This document shows positions 8,800 to 21,542 of a DNA stretch of 21,542 nt, piece after piece. Source of the DNA: a virus. A program made the position numbers and the translations under genes. The stretch spans positions 1 through 21,542 of IMG/VR virus record IMGVR_UViG_3300028394_000352; one strand, given 5' to 3'. Below the pieces are notes generated by a model, which saw nothing but the letters and a program-made list of their open reading frames with translations, was not told where the DNA came from and searched no databases. Every line of letters starts with the position of its first letter. Within the stretch, counting starts at the first letter, position 1.

Positions 8800-10687
8800 A
8801 CCAAGCGCAACCAATCGAGTAGAGAACAAGATTGAAGCCGCCCTGACCTACGCCTCATGGGGCTGGCGAGTGTTACCAGTAGTGCCAAACGGCAAAGTTC
8901 CAGCTACCGCCCACGGGGTCAACGATGCAACGACAGACCCGACGCAGATCCAGCGTTGGTGGGGGCAGAACCCTAACTTGAACGTAGGGATTGCTTGCGG
9001 TAGCGCCAGCGGGATCGTGGTGTTTGACATTGACCCACGCAACGGTGGCGACGCTAGTTGGGCTGAGTGGTTAGACCAGCACGGCCAGATCCCAGACGGG
9101 GTAATGGCGATGACCGCAGGTGGCGGGCAGCACTACGTTGCCAAGCACGTTGATGGCATCCGATCTTGCAAGCTGGCCGATGGTATAGACCTGCTGGCCG
9201 ATGGACGGTATTTCATCGTCTACCCGTCCACAATCGAACACCGGGCCTATGAGTGGGAGGCATCCAGCGATCCGTTGGACGGCATAGCACCAACCGAAAT
9301 ACCAACCCATTGGTTGCCGCTCCTTGGGCAGCGCAAGGTGGCGCCCACAACCAACGGCGATCTGATTCAGGGTAACCGCAACGACGGCCTAACCAGTCTG
9401 GCCGGGGCAATGCGCTCGTTTGGGATGACGGAAGCGGAGATCCTGGCCGCGATAAGTGTTGCAAACGAGACACGCTGCGAGATCCCATTACCATCGAGCG
9501 AGATCAAGCAGATCGCACGCTCCGTGTCACGCTACGAGCCTGACGCAGATGTGGCCGCTAGTAGCGCAATCGGCTCAGAGGCCGCAGACGCGCTTTTATC
9601 TGAGCCGCCCACATCTGACTACTTCCTAACCCGCGCAACGAGCTTCTTGGGCCAACCAAGCCCTGTGCCGTGGATTGTGAAGGGATGGCTTCCTGCATAC
9701 GCCACAACGATGATGTATGGCGAGAGCGGCGTTGGCAAAACATTTGTCGCCTTGGACATGGCTTGTTGCATAGCCAGCGGCATTGACTGGCACGGCATCA
9801 GAACCAAGCCGGGGATCGTGGTGTATCTGGCCGGTGAGGGTAATTACGGGATGCGACAGCGTATTGCAAGCTGGTGCAAGCGTAACAACGTGACGAGCTT
9901 GGACAACTTGCTAATCAGCAACAAGGCCATCGACATGGATGGCCCCGGTGCTGCCACGCAGGTGATTGCGGCGGTCCGGGCGTTGACTTCCGAGCCAGTT
10001 GCGCTAGTCAACATTGATACGTTGAACAATCATATGAGCGGCGATGAGAACTCGGCCAAAGACTCACGCGCCATGATCAATGCTTGTAACGTGGTCTCAA
10101 TGGCTCTCAGCGCCACGACCATGCTGATACACCACCTTGGGCACAGTAACGAAGCAAAACAGCGTGCGCGGGGTTCTAGCGCGTGGCGCGGGGCATTAGA
10201 CGCGAGCATTCTGGTTCATGGCAAGACGCATGAGATCGTCGTGTCTTGCACCAAGCAGAAAGACGCGCCAGAACCAGCGGATCTGTTTGGATGTCTAAGC
10301 CCGGTTGATCTGGGTTGGCAGGATGAGGATGGGATGCCGCTACCCGGGGCGGTGTTTGAGATGTTCGCAGAGGGTGATCTTCGGATGCCACAACCAAAGG
10401 AAGACAAGCTGGCAGAGCACAAAACCAATTTGGAACGCGCTTGGTTCGTTGGCGGTGCGGAAGTTGTGGATGAGATGCCCTACGTCAGTCGAGAGGCGTT
10501 TAAGACGTTTCTGCTTGAGCAAGGCATCAAAGCCAACTCGGTTGACCAGCATCTGAAGTCTTCAGCCAGACCAGGAATGATCATCAGGGATCTAACCGAT
10601 GCTGAAATTATAGGCAAGCACGACAAGGGATGGGTGGTGAAGGATCAAGGGTTGGCGGCGAAACTGATGAGTAAGGTGAAGCAATGA
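8786..10687 (+). CDS. Primase-polymerase/helicase fusion (Prim-Pol with RecA-like ATPase)
   Basis: The product of 633 residues has an N-terminal Prim-Pol domain: WRVLPVVPNGKVPAT near residue 30, VFDIDPRNGG with Asp81 and Asp83, and GGGQHYVAK with His116. These are the metal-binding and nucleotide residues of archaeo-eukaryotic-type primase-polymerases. The second half is a RepA/DnaB-like ATPase: Walker A GESGVGKT (312-319), LVNIDTL as Walker B with Asp411, then LIHHLGHSNEAKQRARGSSA. The protein should prime and unwind phage DNA. ATG 8786 lies within the end of the Cro-like gene, with only a distant GAGGG as ribosome site, so translational coupling is likely. The stop overlaps the next gene as ATGA. 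Confidence 0.93.
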   Translation: MNKIEPSATNRVENKIEAALTYASWGWRVLPVVPNGKVPATAHGVNDATTDPTQIQRWWGQNPNLNVGIACGSASGIVVFDIDPRNGGDASWAEWLDQHGQIPDGVMAMTAGGGQHYVAKHVDGIRSCKLADGIDLLADGRYFIVYPSTIEHRAYEWEASSDPLDGIAPTEIPTHWLPLLGQRKVAPTTNGDLIQGNRNDGLTSLAGAMRSFGMTEAEILAAISVANETRCEIPLPSSEIKQIARSVSRYEPDADVAASSAIGSEAADALLSEPPTSDYFLTRATSFLGQPSPVPWIVKGWLPAYATTMMYGESGVGKTFVALDMACCIASGIDWHGIRTKPGIVVYLAGEGNYGMRQRIASWCKRNNVTSLDNLLISNKAIDMDGPGAATQVIAAVRALTSEPVALVNIDTLNNHMSGDENSAKDSRAMINACNVVSMALSATTMLIHHLGHSNEAKQRARGSSAWRGALDASILVHGKTHEIVVSCTKQKDAPEPADLFGCLSPVDLGWQDEDGMPLPGAVFEMFAEGDLRMPQPKEDKLAEHKTNLERAWFVGGAEVVDEMPYVSREAFKTFLLEQGIKANSVDQHLKSSARPGMIIRDLTDAEIIGKHDKGWVVKDQGLAAKLMSKVKQ

Positions 10688-11517
10688 GCGATCCATTTAA
10701 GATTGACGGTCCAACCGTCATATCGTTTTCAGGCGGCAGAACCTCTGCTTACATGCTGTGGCGCACTCTTAAGTCCAATAACGGGTTGCCAACAGAAGCC
10801 AAGGTTTGCTTTCAAAACACTGGCAAGGAGCGCGAGGAAACGCTGAAATTCGTTAACGAATGTGGCAAACGATGGAACGTTGATATTGACTGGCTTGAGT
10901 TCAGGGACGCAGAGATTAAGTTTGAGAAGGTGACGTTTGAGACGGCCAGCAGGAACGGCGAACCATTTGAGGCGATCATCCGTAAGCGCCAGTTCTTGCC
11001 CAATCCAATTGCTAGGTTCTGCACCGTTGAACTTAAAATCAAGACCGCTGAACGATATTTGAAGTCTTTGGGTTGGACTGATTACGAAAACTGGATTGGA
11101 ATTAGGGCAGATGAACCTAGAAGGTTAGCCAAAACCAAGATCCAAGACCAAAGTAAGGGCACTACAAAATACGCTCCTTGTGGGATTGCGGGTATCACTA
11201 AGCACGACGTGGCTAAGTTCTGGCGTGAACAATCGTTTGATCTTGAGTTGGTCAACGACAACGGCACAACCCCTTGGGGAAACTGTGACCTATGTTTTTT
11301 GAAAGGAACAAGTAAAGTCATGAGTCTGATCTCTAGGGAGCCAGGTCGAGCAACGTGGTGGGCAAAAATGGAAAAAATACCAATGGTTGGCAAGCCGCTA
11401 GGCGGCGCTTTCAGATCTGACCGTCCGTCATACCAGTCAATGATGGATGCGGCTAAGAGTCAAATGGATATGTTTGACGAACCAGAAGAGGACATTTCTT
11501 GCTTCTGTGGAGACTAA
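10684..11517 (+). CDS. PAPS-reductase-like ATP pyrophosphatase
   Basis: The product of 277 residues has the PP-loop SFSGGRTSAYM (14-24), followed by VCFQNTGKEREET, typical of the phosphoadenosine phosphosulphate reductase/N-type ATP pyrophosphatase superfamily. Cysteines sit at RFCTVELK (Cys113), CDLC (201-204) and CFC near the end (273-275); in related enzymes such as DndC some Cys bind an iron-sulphur cluster. Phage members are common but mostly unassigned: they may adenylate a substrate for sulphur or amino transfer, possibly modifying tRNA or DNA. The methyltransferase gene downstream makes DNA modification an attractive but unproven idea. It ends before the repeat array, and the start overlaps the primase stop. 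Confidence 0.85.
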   Translation: MSDPFKIDGPTVISFSGGRTSAYMLWRTLKSNNGLPTEAKVCFQNTGKEREETLKFVNECGKRWNVDIDWLEFRDAEIKFEKVTFETASRNGEPFEAIIRKRQFLPNPIARFCTVELKIKTAERYLKSLGWTDYENWIGIRADEPRRLAKTKIQDQSKGTTKYAPCGIAGITKHDVAKFWREQSFDLELVNDNGTTPWGNCDLCFLKGTSKVMSLISREPGRATWWAKMEKIPMVGKPLGGAFRSDRPSYQSMMDAAKSQMDMFDEPEEDISCFCGD

Positions 11518-11701: not shown

Positions 11702-12895
11702 ATGACCGATCCAGCAGAAAAAATTGAAAAATGGGCGATTGAAAAACTGATTCCCTACGCGAGAAATGCCAGGACGCATTCGGATGAGCAGGTAGGGCAG
11801 ATCGCTGCTTCGATCCGCGAGTGGGGATGGACTACCCCGGTGTTGGTAGATGAGGATGGAGGCATCATCGCTGGTCACGGCAGGACAATGGCAGCAAAGC
11901 GTCTAGGGATGCTTGAAGTACCCGTGATGGTGGCTAGAGGGTGGAGCGATGCAAAGAAGCGAGCCTATGTTCTGGCTGATAACAAACTGGCTCTCAACGC
12001 GGGTTGGGATGATTCAATGCTTGCCCTTGAACTCAAGGAGCTTGGCGAGACAGGGTTTGACTTAGATCTGACTGGTTTTAGCCTAGATGAGATCAACGCG
12101 CTCACGCCGTTGGAGGTGGAACCTGGATTAACGGATGAGGATGCCGTTCCAGAGGCCCCAGAAAAGCCTACAACGCGATTGGGCGACGTTTGGATACTGG
12201 GACAGCACCGACTGATGTGCGGCGATTCTACGTCGATTGACGCGGTTGAGAAGCTGATGGATGGGCAGAAGGTTGACGTACTGTTTACAGATCCACCTTA
12301 CAACGTGGCTTTCAATGGCCGGTCAGGTAAACACGATGTCATTAAAAATGACAACTTGGAAGAAGGTGAGTTTGATCAGTTTATTGGTGATGTGCTTCAA
12401 ACCATAAAAACGATCAACGCTCCGGCTTTTTACATTTGGTGCAACTGGAAGTTTTACGCAACGCTGCAACGCGAACTTGAATACAAGTCTTGCATTGTGT
12501 GGGCAAAAAACGTGTTCGGTATGGGTACAAATTATCGCCACCAACACGAGTTTTGCTTGTTTAACGGCAGCATTGACGATCACATAAAAAACGAATCTGA
12601 TCTTTGGGAAGTCAAAAAAGACACTAATTACGTCCACCCAACGCAAAAACCAGTTGCATTATCTGAACGCGCTCTCGGTAACCACAAAAAAGCGCAAAAC
12701 ATTCTCGACTTGTTTGGTGGAAGCGGCAGCACATTGATCGGATGCGAGAAAATGGGGCGCAAAGCTTTTGTGATGGAGCTTGACCCGAAGTATTGCGATG
12801 TGATAGTAAAGCGATGGCAGGATTACACAGGCAATCAAGCAATACTTCAAGAAAACTCTATAACATTCAATGAGTTAGCATCGAATGGAAGTTGA
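11702..12895 (+). CDS. ParB/Srx-domain plus DNA adenine/cytosine-N4 methyltransferase fusion
   Basis: The product of 397 residues starts with a ParB/sulfiredoxin-like domain (about residues 8-125): KLIPYARNARTHSDEQ, then GGIIAGHGRTMAAKRLG and AYVLADNKLALNAGW. The methyltransferase follows in beta-class order: DPPY at 197-200 (catalytic motif IV), HPTQKP from 312, FGGSGST from 338 (SAM site). Such fusions are frequent in phages; the enzyme transfers methyl from SAM to an exocyclic amino group, N6-adenine or N4-cytosine. The target cannot be read from sequence. ATG 11702 follows AGGGG by about ten bases. The gene lies between two clusters of the same 8-mer repeat and overlaps the small terminase gene by 11 bases. 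Confidence 0.92.
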   Translation: MTDPAEKIEKWAIEKLIPYARNARTHSDEQVGQIAASIREWGWTTPVLVDEDGGIIAGHGRTMAAKRLGMLEVPVMVARGWSDAKKRAYVLADNKLALNAGWDDSMLALELKELGETGFDLDLTGFSLDEINALTPLEVEPGLTDEDAVPEAPEKPTTRLGDVWILGQHRLMCGDSTSIDAVEKLMDGQKVDVLFTDPPYNVAFNGRSGKHDVIKNDNLEEGEFDQFIGDVLQTIKTINAPAFYIWCNWKFYATLQRELEYKSCIVWAKNVFGMGTNYRHQHEFCLFNGSIDDHIKNESDLWEVKKDTNYVHPTQKPVALSERALGNHKKAQNILDLFGGSGSTLIGCEKMGRKAFVMELDPKYCDVIVKRWQDYTGNQAILQENSITFNELASNGS

Positions 12896-13388
12896 AAGTC
12901 AGCAACAACAAAATCGTCACGGTGGTGTAAGGGAAAATGCGGGTCGCCCACGCTTTGAACCAACGGACGAAGAGCGCAAGCAAGTCGAGGCAATGGCTGG
13001 CTATGGCGTTGCTGAAGCGCACATCGCATCATTGATTCGCGGCGGGATTGGCGTCTCGACTTTGCGCGAGCGGTTCAAGGAGAACCTTGAGCAAGGCCGC
13101 GCCAAAGCGCACGCCGGGATTGGAAAGACGCTGTTCCAAAAGGCAATGGCGGGCGACGTGGCGTCGCTCATCTGGTGGACGAAGACGCAGATGCGCTGGA
13201 CCGAAGCACCGCGCCAGATCGAACTGAGCGGCAACATCAGCATCACCGACGCGCTCGCCCAAGCGCAAGCACGCTTGATCGAGGCCGAGATCATTGAGAT
13301 GGATGCGCCGTTACTGACCGTAACAGACCCCGTTACGCTTGTTACGGACGCCGTTACGGTTGACCGCGTTGAGGTAAAAGACCAATGA
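12885..13388 (+). CDS. Probable terminase small subunit
   Basis: The product of 167 residues has GGVRENAGRPRFEPTDEER near the N-terminus, then a helix-turn-helix segment (VEAMAGYGVAEAHIASLI, then GGIGVSTLRERFKE) and a helical part (TLFQKAMAGDVASLIWWTKT). This is the usual architecture of phage small terminases, which recognise phage DNA and hand it to the large subunit. Position before the large terminase and portal supports the call. The last 25 residues are a Val-Thr-rich tail (LLTVTDPVTLVTDAVTVD) produced by the repeat motif in the DNA; it is not a usual part of the family. ATG 12885 overlaps the methylase gene and has only a weak ribosome site. Confidence 0.75.
   Translation: MEVESQQQQNRHGGVRENAGRPRFEPTDEERKQVEAMAGYGVAEAHIASLIRGGIGVSTLRERFKENLEQGRAKAHAGIGKTLFQKAMAGDVASLIWWTKTQMRWTEAPRQIELSGNISITDALAQAQARLIEAEIIEMDAPLLTVTDPVTLVTDAVTVDRVEVKDQ
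13318..13359. repeat. Second CCGTAACA/TGTTACGG cluster, inside the small terminase gene
   Basis: CCGTAACA at 13318-13325 and TGTTACGG at 13340-13347 are exact copies of the 8-mers in the array 1.6 kb upstream, facing each other across 14 bases. CGTTACG at 13331-13337 and CCGTTACGG at 13351-13359 are close variants, and CGTTAC also occurs at 13309. Reading the motif in frame gives the repeated Val-Thr residues of the protein tail. Confidence 0.7.
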
Positions 13389-13531
13389 AATCAACGACTT
13401 AGGGCCGATTCTTCGACCACCGGCAGGGCCGGCGTCGGTTCCGGCCACGCGCCGAGGGGGCCGGGTAGGGCCGGCGGGCGACCGGTCACGGTAACGGTGG
13501 CCCCACAAGAATTTTTTTTATTTTTTGAAAA
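13389..13531. other. G+C-rich island and A/T-rich leader between the terminase genes
   Basis: This gap contains no convincing gene. Bases 13421-13500 are 65 of 80 G or C (81%), far above the rest of the window. AGGGCCGGCG occurs at 13425-13434 and 13467-13476, and the block is closed by CCACCG (13417-13422) and CGGTGG (13495-13500). CGGTAACGG (13489-13497) partly matches the nearby 8-mer. It is followed at once by A/T-rich sequence (27 of 30 at 13511-13540) with T-runs at 13512-13519 and 13521-13526. Strong RNA or DNA structure, or a packaging site (cos/pac), are the main possibilities. Confidence 0.6.
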
Positions 13532-15055
13532 ATGCAAAAAACCAAGTACAGCGCCGAAGACGAACAGATCCTGATGACCAAGCTCTGGTCGCCGGCGGTC
13601 GCGGACAACCCGGAGGCGTTCGTGTTGTTTGCGTTTCCGTGGGGTCAGGCGAACACGCCGTTAGCTAAGTTCAGCGGGCCGAGGAAGTGGCAGCGCGAGA
13701 TCCTGCGCGACATTGCCAAGCACATTAAGGAGAACCAAGGCCAGGTTGATATGCAGACGCTGCGCGAGGCGGTGTCGAGCGGGCGTGGTATTGGCAAGTC
13801 GGCGCTGGTGAGTTGGTTGATATTGTGGATGCTATCAACGCGGATCGGCTCAACGGTGATCGTGTCGGCGAACTCAGAGAGCCAGCTACGCTCGGTGACC
13901 TGGGGCGAGTTGACCAAGTGGCAAGCCATGATCATCAATAGCCATTGGTGGGAGATCAGCGCAACGAAGATAGTCCCGGCGGCGTGGTTAACGGAACTGG
14001 TTGAGCGCGATCTTAAGAAAGGGACACGCTACTGGGCGGCAGAGGGCAAGCTCTGGTCAGAAGAGAACCCAGACGCTTACGCTGGGGTACACAACCACGA
14101 TGGGATGATGTTGATATTTGACGAGGCGTCAGGGATACCAGATCCAATCTGGGCGGTGGGTGCGGGGTTTTTTACCGAGAACATCCTAGATCGGTATTGG
14201 TTTGCGTTTAGTAACCCAAGGAGAAATAGTGGGTACTTCTTTGAGACATTTCATGGCAAGCGGGATTTTTGGAAGGGGCGGCAGATTGATGCCAGGGAGG
14301 TTGAGGGGACGGACAAGAATACTTATGAGCAGATCATCGCCGAGTATGGGGAGGATTCACCTCAAGCGCGGGTGGAGGTATACGGGGAGTTTCCAGCTAG
14401 TGGGGATGACCAGTTCATTGGACCGCGACTGGTGGATGATGCGATGGAGCGGGAGAAATACAAGGATCAGACCGCGCCGATTGTCATTGGTGTTGATCCG
14501 GCGCGAGGAGGATTGGATTCAACGGTGATTGTGGTGCGCCAAGGCCGCGACATTGTTGCAATCAAGCGGTTTAGGGGCGACGATACAATGACTACCGTTG
14601 GCAATGTCATTGACGCGATTGAGGAATACAAGCCCACGCTGACGGTCATTGACGAGGGTGGCTTGGGGTATGGAATACTTGACCGATTGGTTGAACAAAG
14701 GTATAAGGTGCGAGGGGTGAACTTTGGCTGGAAAGCCAAAAACCCGGTGATGTGGGGTAATAAGCGGGCAGAGATGTGGGGTGCTATGCGGGACTGGTTA
14801 CGGTCTGCGAGTATTCCGAAGGATCGGCAACTCAAAGCAGATCTGGTTGGCCCGATGAAAAAGCCCAACAGCGCGGGTACGATCTTCTTGGAGGGAAAGA
14901 AGGAGATGAAGTCTAGGGGTTTAGCAAGTCCCGATGCGGCTGATGCGTTGGCCGTAACCTTTGCTTACCCTGTGGCGCATCGAGAATACAAAGAGCCACC
15001 TAGGACGTTAAGGTCTAGTGGGTCTACAATGTCTGGATCTTGGATGGGTGCATAA
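13532..15055 (+). CDS. Terminase large subunit
   Basis: The product of 507 residues is the packaging ATPase-nuclease. The ATPase half has SSGRGIGKS (Walker A, residues 82-90) and MMLIFDEASG (192-201), with Asp197 and Glu198 as Walker B and catalytic Glu. The nuclease half has IGVDPARGGLDST, with Asp322 as metal ligand, then TVIDEGGLGYG and SPDAADALAV, the further acidic positions of the RNase H-like nuclease. It pumps DNA through the portal and cuts it. An in-frame stop at 13526 fixes the start at ATG 13532, although no good ribosome site is present in the A/T-rich leader. The downstream small gene starts directly after its stop codon. Confidence 0.95.
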   Translation: MQKTKYSAEDEQILMTKLWSPAVADNPEAFVLFAFPWGQANTPLAKFSGPRKWQREILRDIAKHIKENQGQVDMQTLREAVSSGRGIGKSALVSWLILWMLSTRIGSTVIVSANSESQLRSVTWGELTKWQAMIINSHWWEISATKIVPAAWLTELVERDLKKGTRYWAAEGKLWSEENPDAYAGVHNHDGMMLIFDEASGIPDPIWAVGAGFFTENILDRYWFAFSNPRRNSGYFFETFHGKRDFWKGRQIDAREVEGTDKNTYEQIIAEYGEDSPQARVEVYGEFPASGDDQFIGPRLVDDAMEREKYKDQTAPIVIGVDPARGGLDSTVIVVRQGRDIVAIKRFRGDDTMTTVGNVIDAIEEYKPTLTVIDEGGLGYGILDRLVEQRYKVRGVNFGWKAKNPVMWGNKRAEMWGAMRDWLRSASIPKDRQLKADLVGPMKKPNSAGTIFLEGKKEMKSRGLASPDAADALAVTFAYPVAHREYKEPPRTLRSSGSTMSGSWMGA

Positions 15056-18412: not shown

Positions 18413-20308
18413 ATGGCAAATACAACGATTACAGGTTTACCGGCGGCGACTACCCCGCTCGCGGGTACTGAAGTCGTTCCTATTGTCCAAGGCGGTGTAA
18501 CCAAGCAAGTTGCCGTTAGCAATATCGGCGGCAGCGGTTCTGGTACGGTTACCAGCATCGCTACGGGTGCTGGACTAGCTGGTGGGCCAATTACCACCAG
18601 CGGCACGATTAGCTTGGCGGCAACTTCGGTTGCACCGGGTAGTTACACCAACACCAACCTAACGGTTGACGCTTACGGACGCATTACCGCCGCGTCGGCT
18701 GGTACATCCACGGTTACAAGCGTTAGCGGCACGCCTAACGAGATTACATCTAGCGGATCGTCCGCAATTACGCTGTCGTTGCCCGCTGCGCTGACGTTTA
18801 CGGGCAAAACAGTTACTGGTGGTGCGTTTACCGGCGGCACGATCAACAATACGTCTGTAGGGGCTACCACGCCAGCTACAGGTGCGTTCACGACGTTCAC
18901 GACTGGAACGGGCCAGATCACGACCGCTCCAAGCAGCGCGAATGACTTGGTTAACAAGTCTTACGTTGACTCAATTGCTGCTGGTCTGACGTTCCACGCG
19001 GCTTGTAATCTAGCGACGACCGCTGCCCTGCCAACGGTAACGTACAGCAACGGCTCAAGCGGTGTTGGCGCTACGTTGACCGCATCGGCTAACGGTGCGC
19101 TAACTGTAGATTCAGTTACGCCTAGCGTTGGAAACCGGATTCTTGTTAAAGATCAAGCATCTGCGCTACAGAACGGTGTTTATACTGTAACTACGGTTGG
19201 TGATGGGTCTACCCCATTTTTACTGACCCGTGCGACCGACATGAATACGTCGGGCAGCGGTTACAACCAGATCAATGCTGGTAACTATTTCCTGATTACG
19301 GCAGGAACGGTTAACACCAACACCTCATGGGTGCAGACGACGGCGCTGCCGATTACGGTTGGCACAACTAGCTTGGTGTTTTCGCAGTTCTCGTCTGGCG
19401 CTACTGCGTATAGCGCAGGGACTGGCCTGTCGCTGCTGGCTAACCAGTTCAGCATTACTAGCACCGCCGTTACGGCAGGAAGCTACGGTAGCGGATCGCA
19501 AGTTCCTACGTTCGCGGTCAACGCTCGCGGTCAACTGACCTTGGCAGCAAACACCAGCATTGCAATTGCAGGCTCGCAGATTACGTCTGGAACGGTCGCC
19601 ATTGTTAACGGTGGCACGGGCGCAAACTCGCAGCAAGGCGCACTCAATGCGTTGGCTGGTGCCACAACGTCTGGATCGTTCTTGCGCGGCAACGGCACAA
19701 ACGTGTCAATGTCTACAATCCAGGCTGCGGATGTACCAACGCTGAACCAGAACACGACTGGTAATGCTGCCAACGTAACCGGAACGGTTGCGATTGCCAA
19801 CGGCGGTACGGGTCAGAACAACAAAGCCAACGCTTTCAATGCGTTGTCGCCAATTACAACGACTGGCGACATTATTATTGGGACCGGGACCAATGCGTCC
19901 AGTCGGTTGGGGATTGGTACGGTTGGTTATGTACTGACGTCTACCGGCACAACCGCAACGTGGCAAGCGTCAACTGGCGGTGTAACGTCATTCCAGACCA
20001 GTTTGTCCGGTCTGACGCCTAGCTCGTCTACAGGCGGTGCAATTACACTTGCTGGCACGTTGGGGCCAACGAGCGGTGGTACAAACCAATCGTCGTACAC
20101 TAAGGGCGACATTTTGTATTCTTCGGCTACGAATACATTGTCAAAACTTGGGATTGGAACTGCCAATCAGATTTTGACTGTTGACGCGACGGGGGTTCCG
20201 TATTGGGCCGCTAACTCTGGCGGCAGCGGGGGAAGTCCAAATCTTGATGGCGGCACACCATCGTCTAGTTATGCTGCCATATCGCCAATTAACGGGGGGA
20301 CACCGTAA
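18413..20308 (+). CDS. Tail fibre protein with modular Gly/Thr/Ser repeats
   Basis: The product of 631 residues has a conserved N-terminal part ([20 protein letters not shown], then [13 protein letters not shown]) seen at the start of many phage fibre or fibre-like proteins. The rest is almost free of charged residues and full of beta-strand modules: [14 protein letters not shown], the domain from [20 protein letters not shown] through [19 protein letters not shown], and two IxNGGTG modules (residues 397 and 461) each followed by a 'FNAL' or 'LNAL' helix. Such proteins form long trimeric fibres that contact the host surface. The stop shares an A with the next ATG (TAATG), so the two fibre genes are coupled. 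Confidence 0.87.
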
Positions 20309-21399
20309 TGCCGGTGCAAATTCAACTTAGAAACGGTACTGCTGCTCAGTGGACCGCCGCCAACCCAACGCTTGCCGCTGGTGAGGTTGGCATTGAAAGC
20401 GACACCAAAAAACAAAAGTTTGGTGACGGCACAACTGCTTGGAACTCGCTTGCATATGCTGGCGGGGGTAGCGTTACGTCGGTAGGTTTATCTGCTCCCG
20501 CTTTTTTGTCAGTTGGTGGTAGCCCGGTAACAGGTTCTGGAACGCTCGCGCTTTCTTATTCTGGAACTGCGCTGCCGATTGCTAACGGCGGTACGGGTGC
20601 AACATCGGCCATTTCTGCATTTAACGCGCTTGCCCCATCGCAAACGTCTAACTCAGGTAAATACCTAACAACAGACGGAACCAATACGTCTTGGGCAACG
20701 GTATCTAGCGGTGGCTCTCCCGGCGGCTCAACAACGCAAATTCAGTACAACAACGCTGGCGCGTTTGCTGGTTCCGCTAACTTGACGTTTGATGGAACTA
20801 CGCTGACCGCAGCAGGATTGGCTGGCCCGCACAACGGTACGGTTGGCGCTGGAACGCCAAACACGGGCGCATTTACAACTCTTTCCGCAAGCTCAACGGT
20901 TAGCGGAACTGGATTCAGCACTTATCTTGCCTCTCCTCCTGCAATTGGTGGAACAACTCCAGCAGCGGGTACATTTACGACTGCAAAAGCTATTGCAGCG
21001 GCAACGCAAGACGCCGTGCAATTACAAGGTCGTGCTGGCGGTACAAGTAGTTATGTGGCGACTATTACGCCAACGACGCTGACAGCAAGTCGCACGTTTA
21101 CGTTGCCAGACGCAACAGGGACGCTGCTGCTTAGTGGTGGCGCTCTTGGCACTCCATCTAGCGGTACGCTGACGAACGCAACTGGATTGCCATTGTCCAC
21201 TGGTGTCACGGGGAATTTGCCTGTCACTAACTTGAATAGCGGTACGGGCGCAACAAGCTCAACGTATTGGCGCGGTGATGGTACTTGGGCATCGGTAAGT
21301 GCTGGAGCAGGTGGAAGCACAACTCAAGTTCAATACAACAGTAGCGGATCACTTGCTGGTTCAGCTAACATGACGTTCAACGGTACTGCCTTGACGCTT
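19601..21399 (+). repeat. Repeated fibre modules shared by the two fibre genes
   Basis: The I-x-N-GGTG module occurs at 19601 and 19793 in the first fibre gene and 20578 in the second, with closely similar bases (attgttaacggtggcacggg, attgccaacggcggtacggg, attgctaacggcggtacggg). Inside the second gene the TTQ-QYN block at about 20731-20811 returns at 21319-21399. The T-P-x-T-G-A-F-T-T motif appears near 18867 in the first gene and near 20850 and 20955 in the second. Confidence 0.75.
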
Positions 21400-21542
21400 G
21401 GAGCTGATGCCACCGTCAATAGCATCACCGTTGGTCGTGGTGGAAGTGCTTTAAACACTTGCGTAGCGGTTGGAAAATCTGCAGGTGCGTCTGCGACAGG
21501 CTCAACAGATGGATCAACAGCCGTTGGGAATTTGGCACTTCA
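20308..21542 (+). CDS. Second tail fibre, Mtd-N-like start, 3' partial
   Basis: The frame is open to the right edge, so the C-terminus and receptor-binding part are missing. The first 50 residues ([40 protein letters not shown]) resemble the N-terminal domain of the Bordetella phage major tropism determinant and many other fibre proteins. It continues with an [10 protein letters not shown] module (residue 91), two related TTQ-QYN...GSAN-TF-GT-L modules (about 142 and 338), a [14 protein letters not shown] block, and near the edge a YadA-head-like [12 protein letters not shown]...AVGNLAL stretch. It probably pairs with the fibre encoded just upstream. Confidence 0.85.

Follow-up and report, generated by a model that had tools for sequence, protein, structure and literature searches.

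Podovirus-like phages of one clade, with genomes of 35-39 kb, carry a conserved DNA element next to their terminase genes, and it probably serves as their DNA packaging-initiation site, of the pac or cos type, a reading to which we assign, on sequence grounds, a probability of roughly 0.58. The site has two parts, an upstream array of iterons and a constant core of roughly 70 bp made up of a G/C-rich run, TAGGGCCG, an ACGGT block, and a T-tract. A single copy beside terS, repeats that follow the small terminase subunit (TerS), and a core that follows the large one (TerL) are together as expected of a packaging-initiation site. The main rival is a replication origin, alone or combined with packaging, because one subclade carries DnaA boxes at the site.

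The island between the terminase genes

The window, which here means the whole stretch of 21,542 bp that was analysed, belongs to virus record IMGVR_UViG_3300028394_000352, a podovirus-like phage with a P22-like portal. The features around the element are the following.

12885-13388, + strand: terS, putative terminase small subunit (phrog_309, E 1.1e-9; phrog_12540, E 1.1e-12)
13310-13357, + strand: array of iterons at the 3' end of the terS coding sequence, with GTTAC/GTAAC copies starting at 13310, 13320, 13332, 13341, and 13353 (spacings 10, 12, 9, and 12) and a 21-bp repeat, D1
13411-13490, + strand: richest 80 bp in G+C, from a composition scan of the window
13411-13454, + strand: variable region between terS and the core, the left half of the G+C stretch
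13455-13526, + strand: conserved core (nhmmer, positions 2-73 of a 74-position profile, E 2.6e-18; 133-copy alignment), comprising a G-run, TAGGGCCG (13466-13473), GGTCACGGTAACGGT (13484-13498), CCCC-ACAAGAA, and a T8-A-T6 tract
13491-13495, + strand: a sixth GTAAC, within the core
13512-13526, + strand: T-rich tract TTTTTTTTATTTTTT, within the core, separated from the terL ATG by 5 bp (core alignment)
13532-15055, + strand: terL, terminase large subunit (phrog_2, E 4.4e-43; tblastn to annotated TerLs)

The annotated TerLs matched by the window TerL in tblastn include those of epsilon15, Tyrion, and P1 (PacB). No Pfam match was found for the window TerS, and a search against the sequences of solved structures gave no match for TerL (E up to 0.01) or TerS (E up to 1). 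From the terS stop (13388) to the terL start (13532) there are 143 bases, in which the only ORF of at least 50 aa is a 65-aa minus-strand frame overlapping terS. Elsewhere in the window, a fusion of a ParB N-terminal domain and an N6/N4 DNA methylase lies immediately 5' of terS (11702-12895), and a gene with a PAPS reductase domain (10684-11517) is likely an auxiliary metabolic gene. An ORF with an Mtd_N (major tropism determinant N-terminal) domain at 20308-21540 is cut by the contig end, so that the window stops short of where a diversity-generating retroelement could be sought.

The first-pass annotation had described a G+C island followed by an A/T-rich leader, with a 10-base direct repeat 42 bases apart and complementary closing segments, and the composition and the repeat were both confirmed. 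The G+C maximum of the window is 65/80 (13411-13490) against 55/80 in the next non-overlapping stretch, while 200 first-order Markov sequences reached 64/80 at most. The A+T maximum per 30 bp is 27/30 from 13510, in a stretch that takes in the terL start codon; this run alone is unexceptional, since the same number of Markov sequences reached 28/30 (mean 24.3). The direct repeat is AGGGCCGGCG, with copies at 13425-13434 and 13467-13476, and also has a 13-base version that is 12/13 identical; of the two copies, the conserved core includes the second alone. The closing segments GGGCC (13468-13472) and GGCCC (13499-13503), read by eye, are indeed complementary in the window, but the pairing is not kept in relatives.

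A core shared by a large phage group

A TerL search gathered 80 loci without reference to the element, and the island stands immediately 5' of terL in eight of these. Viral contigs were in addition scanned with a pattern for the core, and a profile built from 27 diverse copies was iterated. The iterated profile gives one match per locus at 238 loci (E 0.05), and 228 loci match at E<1e-3 with the duplicate L001 excluded. The 133 dereplicated copies that were aligned have in common a G-rich run, a near-invariant A-GGGCC, a variable stretch, and an ACGGT block, after which come pyrimidine-C-purine-C, ACA, and the T-tract. The core is a conserved DNA signal of a large, mostly uncultured freshwater phage group.

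Among the TerL-found loci, the core is present in 63/80 at E<1e-3; five more (L045, L048, L060, L069, and L070) match weakly (E 0.001-0.005), L061 matches in part (E 0.04), and 11 have no profile match, seven of which have less than 130 bp of upstream sequence. The near-complete set comprises 27 records of 35-39 kb, namely 24 IMG/VR contigs and three GenBank genomes. Exactly one core copy, on the terL strand, is held by 24 of them, which means a single copy in 24/24 records with a match, as a packaging site would require. For the other three, W02 has a degenerate core only (L292, about 2029-2110, seen by eye; profile E 0.08-0.28), and the profile search gave no core match in W03 or in G024, whose contig start at that place looks rearranged. 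The element of phage DSL-LC05 scores weakly with the profile (E 0.0006-0.008, depending on search size) and is clear by eye.

An assembly accident was rejected, as the core recurs once per genome in 24/27 near-complete records and beside terminase genes. The view that the island is a selected element is strongly supported by this conservation, single copy, and terminase linkage, whereas its recent insertion, also raised by the first-pass annotation, is contradicted by a core common to phages whose TerL is just 68% identical. A host-derived or attP origin was likewise set aside: a scan of genome contigs gave 106 stretches with one strong profile match, L252, which is an Acidimicrobium bin carrying terL, and two weak ones (L185 and L251, E about 0.04). 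Blastn of the island against phage and plasmid records returned short chance-like matches only. A protein-coding core, suggested by a VTVTV-like frame seen by eye, was dropped because of one-base indels upstream between close relatives and because the variable positions were partly fixed by our own search pattern.

Linkage of the core to the terminase genes

Terminase adjacency, which a packaging site should display, was found in 156/164 pattern-found loci, where the core is followed, at a distance of -7 to 2545 bp (median 468 bp), by a same-strand gene of the TerL family to which the window TerL belongs; the other eight have less than 960 bp of downstream sequence. The gene terS is upstream of the core in 99 of the 164 loci, downstream in 59, and not found in six. 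Relatives without the island at the terS-terL junction had been named beforehand as grounds for doubting it, and in the literal sense they are common, since the island precedes terS in most close terL relatives (52/63 element-bearing TerL-found loci); yet the core is present there, before terS. Adjacency to terS, rather than the junction itself, is therefore what counts.

The TerLs of element-bearing loci are 68-99% identical to the window TerL (197 measured). The site is clade-specific, as MW202898, with a TerL at 53% identity, has no core by profile search. In MW202483 (TerL 68-70% identical) only a degenerate core is seen, by eye, and an annotated homing endonuclease gene separates this element from terS (L292:2139-2585). 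An extra gene of ~450 bp, beginning MPLLITPISLEEAN or similar, sits exactly between the T-tract and terL in L087, L092, L099, L131, and L133; the L131 and L133 copies are preceded by what is left of a terL start, which looks as though the gene had been inserted just after that start. As for the named relatives of DSL-LC05, tblastn found no homologous TerL in Rhodoferax phage P26218 (portal 41%), which also lacks the element, and Vibrio phage VvAW1 gave no core match in one profile search.

Whatever the replication genes, the core is confined to one TerL clade. The 28 records searched contain at least three replication modules, and the core is found with all three: an AAA_25 helicase together with a primase-polymerase (10/28 with AAA_25 above the cut-off, the window included), a DNA_pol_A polymerase (12/28), and a group with neither, among which G005 has a different polymerase, phrog_1252. 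MW202867 resembles the window in TerS (61%), primase (55%), and methyltransferase (54%), and has no homologous TerL and no core. Loci with the window primase have both the TerL clade and the core in 20 cases and neither in three, with no discordant case (40/63 loci were skipped for too little downstream sequence). Those with the window TerS have both in 51 cases and neither in five (23/80 skipped for the same reason), and one has the core without TerL, at a locus with 1.6 kb of room. These splits imply that the core goes with TerL, and core distances have a partial r of 0.31 with TerL versus 0.18 with TerS.

Iterons beside the core

The five GTTAC/GTAAC copies within terS have a mean step of about 11 bp. 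Across 33 distinct loci of the window group, the median density of this motif is 36 per kb at the array versus 0.88 per kb downstream. Tandem repeats in 500-bp flanks are present upstream in 66/119 loci and downstream in 4/130, compared with 11/101 and 1/117 in distant flanks, and in many genomes the densest 9-mer cluster is within about 300 bp of the core. In some loci with terS downstream, repeats were seen by eye on both sides of the core. In G016 and G017 a second cluster, in which TGTACCGAA is repeated 8-9 times, lies about 1.5 kb 5' of the element.

The repeat type varies between subclades. With five iteron classes, defined after seeing the data and covering 50/101 loci (51 unlabelled), iteron class agrees with TerS clusters at an AMI of 0.84 and with TerL clusters at 0.34, the largest AMI in 200 permutations being 0.13 (at four clusters). 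Part of the agreement with TerS may be due to the physical linkage of the repeats to the adjacent terS.

Perfect DnaA boxes replace the iterons in one subclade. Boxes such as TTATCCACA lie directly upstream of the core in this large subclade and in L041 and L297. Perfect box clusters (TTATCCACA, TGTGCATAA, and TTGTCCACA) are seen just upstream of the element in the large subclade and two other groups; examples are L364:1-137 and the sequence preceding the element in L082, L143, L165, L041, and L297. Small proteins with DnaA domain IV (PF08299) are encoded in two phages (W02:31477-31671 and G019:23298-23486).

Packaging initiation and known packaging sites

From these patterns we infer protein binding, a cut, its position, and the packaging mode. 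TerS oligomers would bind the iterons, presumably side by side, since the iteron spacing is roughly helical. TerL would read the core, or the core would be bent for it by the contrast of a stiff G/C run and the T-tract. The first cut by TerL could then fall inside the core or adjoining it, after which the DNA would be pumped into the prohead.

In lambda-type cos (cosN/cosB), G+C-rich DNA lies next to A/T-rich DNA before the terminase genes, and TerS binds repeats. The element likewise is G+C-rich beside an A/T-rich stretch, precedes terminase genes, and has repeats. It differs in that its repeats are mainly on the side of the core away from terL and in that a relative, Enterobacter phage Tyrion, has circularly permuted ends, as determined by PCR (PMC5754475). 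The Tyrion TerL is 36% identical to that of the window, and because a related TerL serves a circularly permuted phage, headful (pac) packaging would by analogy be likelier than cos.

The contig ends were considered along with this. None of 23 near-complete element-bearing IMG/VR contigs ends inside the core, and 11/23 have assembly end repeats, which fit but do not prove headful packaging. Four of the 23 end at most 300 bp upstream of the core, three of these in or near tandem repeats, and a few short contigs (L168 and L102) end within it. Clustering of contig ends was rejected as cos evidence, as the ends near the element coincide with tandem repeats or G-runs, at which assemblies break.

The closest known anatomy is that of P1 pac, a 161-bp site in pacA that combines a cut site and an IHF site with seven TGATCA/G hexamer repeats (PMC10028697). 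P1 PacB is homologous to the window TerL (28% identical), and short repeats lie in a small-terminase gene in P1 and in the window group alike, beside the cut region in P1 and beside a putative one here. Unlike those of P1, the repeats are of another sequence that differs between subclades, and a long conserved core with a G/C run and a T-tract is present. PaP3 cos is a G+C-rich 20-mer with GGGGCCGGC on one strand (PMC7672466), which resembles the element; unlike the element, it has no T-tract after the 20-mer. Homology to PaP3 cos is not supported, the PaP3 genome ends compared having given no profile match, and the likeness is probably chance.

Alternative functions

Bacterial oriC and iteron plasmid origins have boxes or iterons, then G+C-rich and then A+T-rich DNA, once per genome. 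The element resembles them in this order and in being single in the genome. It could be an origin at which DnaA or a phage initiator binds the upstream boxes or iterons, the G/C run being a boundary and the T-tract the unwinding element. The flanks lend this some weight: 45 DnaA-type boxes occur in the upstream 300 bp of 121 loci (21 loci with at least one), whereas 131 downstream flanks have none and more distant sequence has 0.12 per kb; the tandem repeats show a similar one-sidedness, and all four DnaA-like boxes of the G016 and G017 genomes lie within 115 bp upstream of the element. Such boxes are origin-like, and packaging has no need of them and leaves them unexplained; the clusters are possibly an origin at the packaging site. 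However, nearby DnaA-like boxes are confined to some subclades, and the window is without any DnaA box (TTWTNCACA). Unlike bacterial oriC, the element follows TerL and not replication genes: the association with a replication module expected of an origin was not found, and the core is missing where the same primase has another TerL. The detrended GC skew also makes no turn at the element. An origin is therefore held to be rather unlikely, though ahead of the other rivals.

Less probable still is a late promoter or regulatory leader preceding the late operon, in which case the iterons would be operators. The element heads a long, mostly same-strand late gene block upstream of terL, and its T-tract is often 5-50 bp from a start codon. 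Against this, a scan of 12885-14100 found no sigma-70-like promoter, and the core, which tracks TerL, precedes terS in 59 loci and follows it in 99, and so has no fixed place in the operon. A structured RNA, a terminator, or a G-quadruplex or R-loop element is very improbable. Pairing of GGGCC with GGCCC before a T-run would be possible in the window group, but the single-sequence fold of the island is no better than shuffles (z -0.95), no intrinsic terminator was found by a scan at the island, and no Rfam family matches it above chance. The covariance-aware folding of homologous gaps proposed by the first-pass annotation gave no conserved pairing: RNAalifold predicts no consensus structure in 132 aligned copies, and the strongest covarying column pairs are non-complementary. 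A four-tract G motif is present in 41/131 copies and absent from 90/131, and a C-run replaces the G-run in eight, so that a G-quadruplex or G-strand R-loop is not a conserved property and this candidate was rejected. Of the functions that had been listed at the outset (cos/pac site, structured RNA, or processing signal), cos/pac is the best supported, and structured RNA falls away.

A more specific form of the packaging-site reading is offered tentatively. Packaging would use two keys, an invariant core read by TerL and inherited with it, and an exchangeable iteron array read by TerS. Phages would swap arrays, in one subclade for DnaA boxes, which would couple the start of packaging to the host initiator or to a co-located replication origin.

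Significance

The Dishui Lake phage paper proposes the family Luchaoviridae for DSL-LC05, and the words ‘packaging’ and ‘repeat’ are absent from its main text as available (PMC10611076). Searches of the open-licence literature on packaging sites, cos sites, and origins gave no paper describing the element, as judged by titles and the beginnings of abstracts, which is no proof of its being unpublished.

Packaging sites are known for few phages and have usually been found singly by end mapping. Here, more than 200 contigs from a common group of freshwater phages have a probable packaging site marked by one conserved profile, and the element is usable as a marker to orient and close such genomes. 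Natural exchanges of TerS and TerL suggest the part of the site that each protein reads, so that the long-standing question of what TerL itself recognises becomes directly testable. Likewise, a connection of replication with packaging, raised by the DnaA boxes that one subclade has at the site, can be tested.
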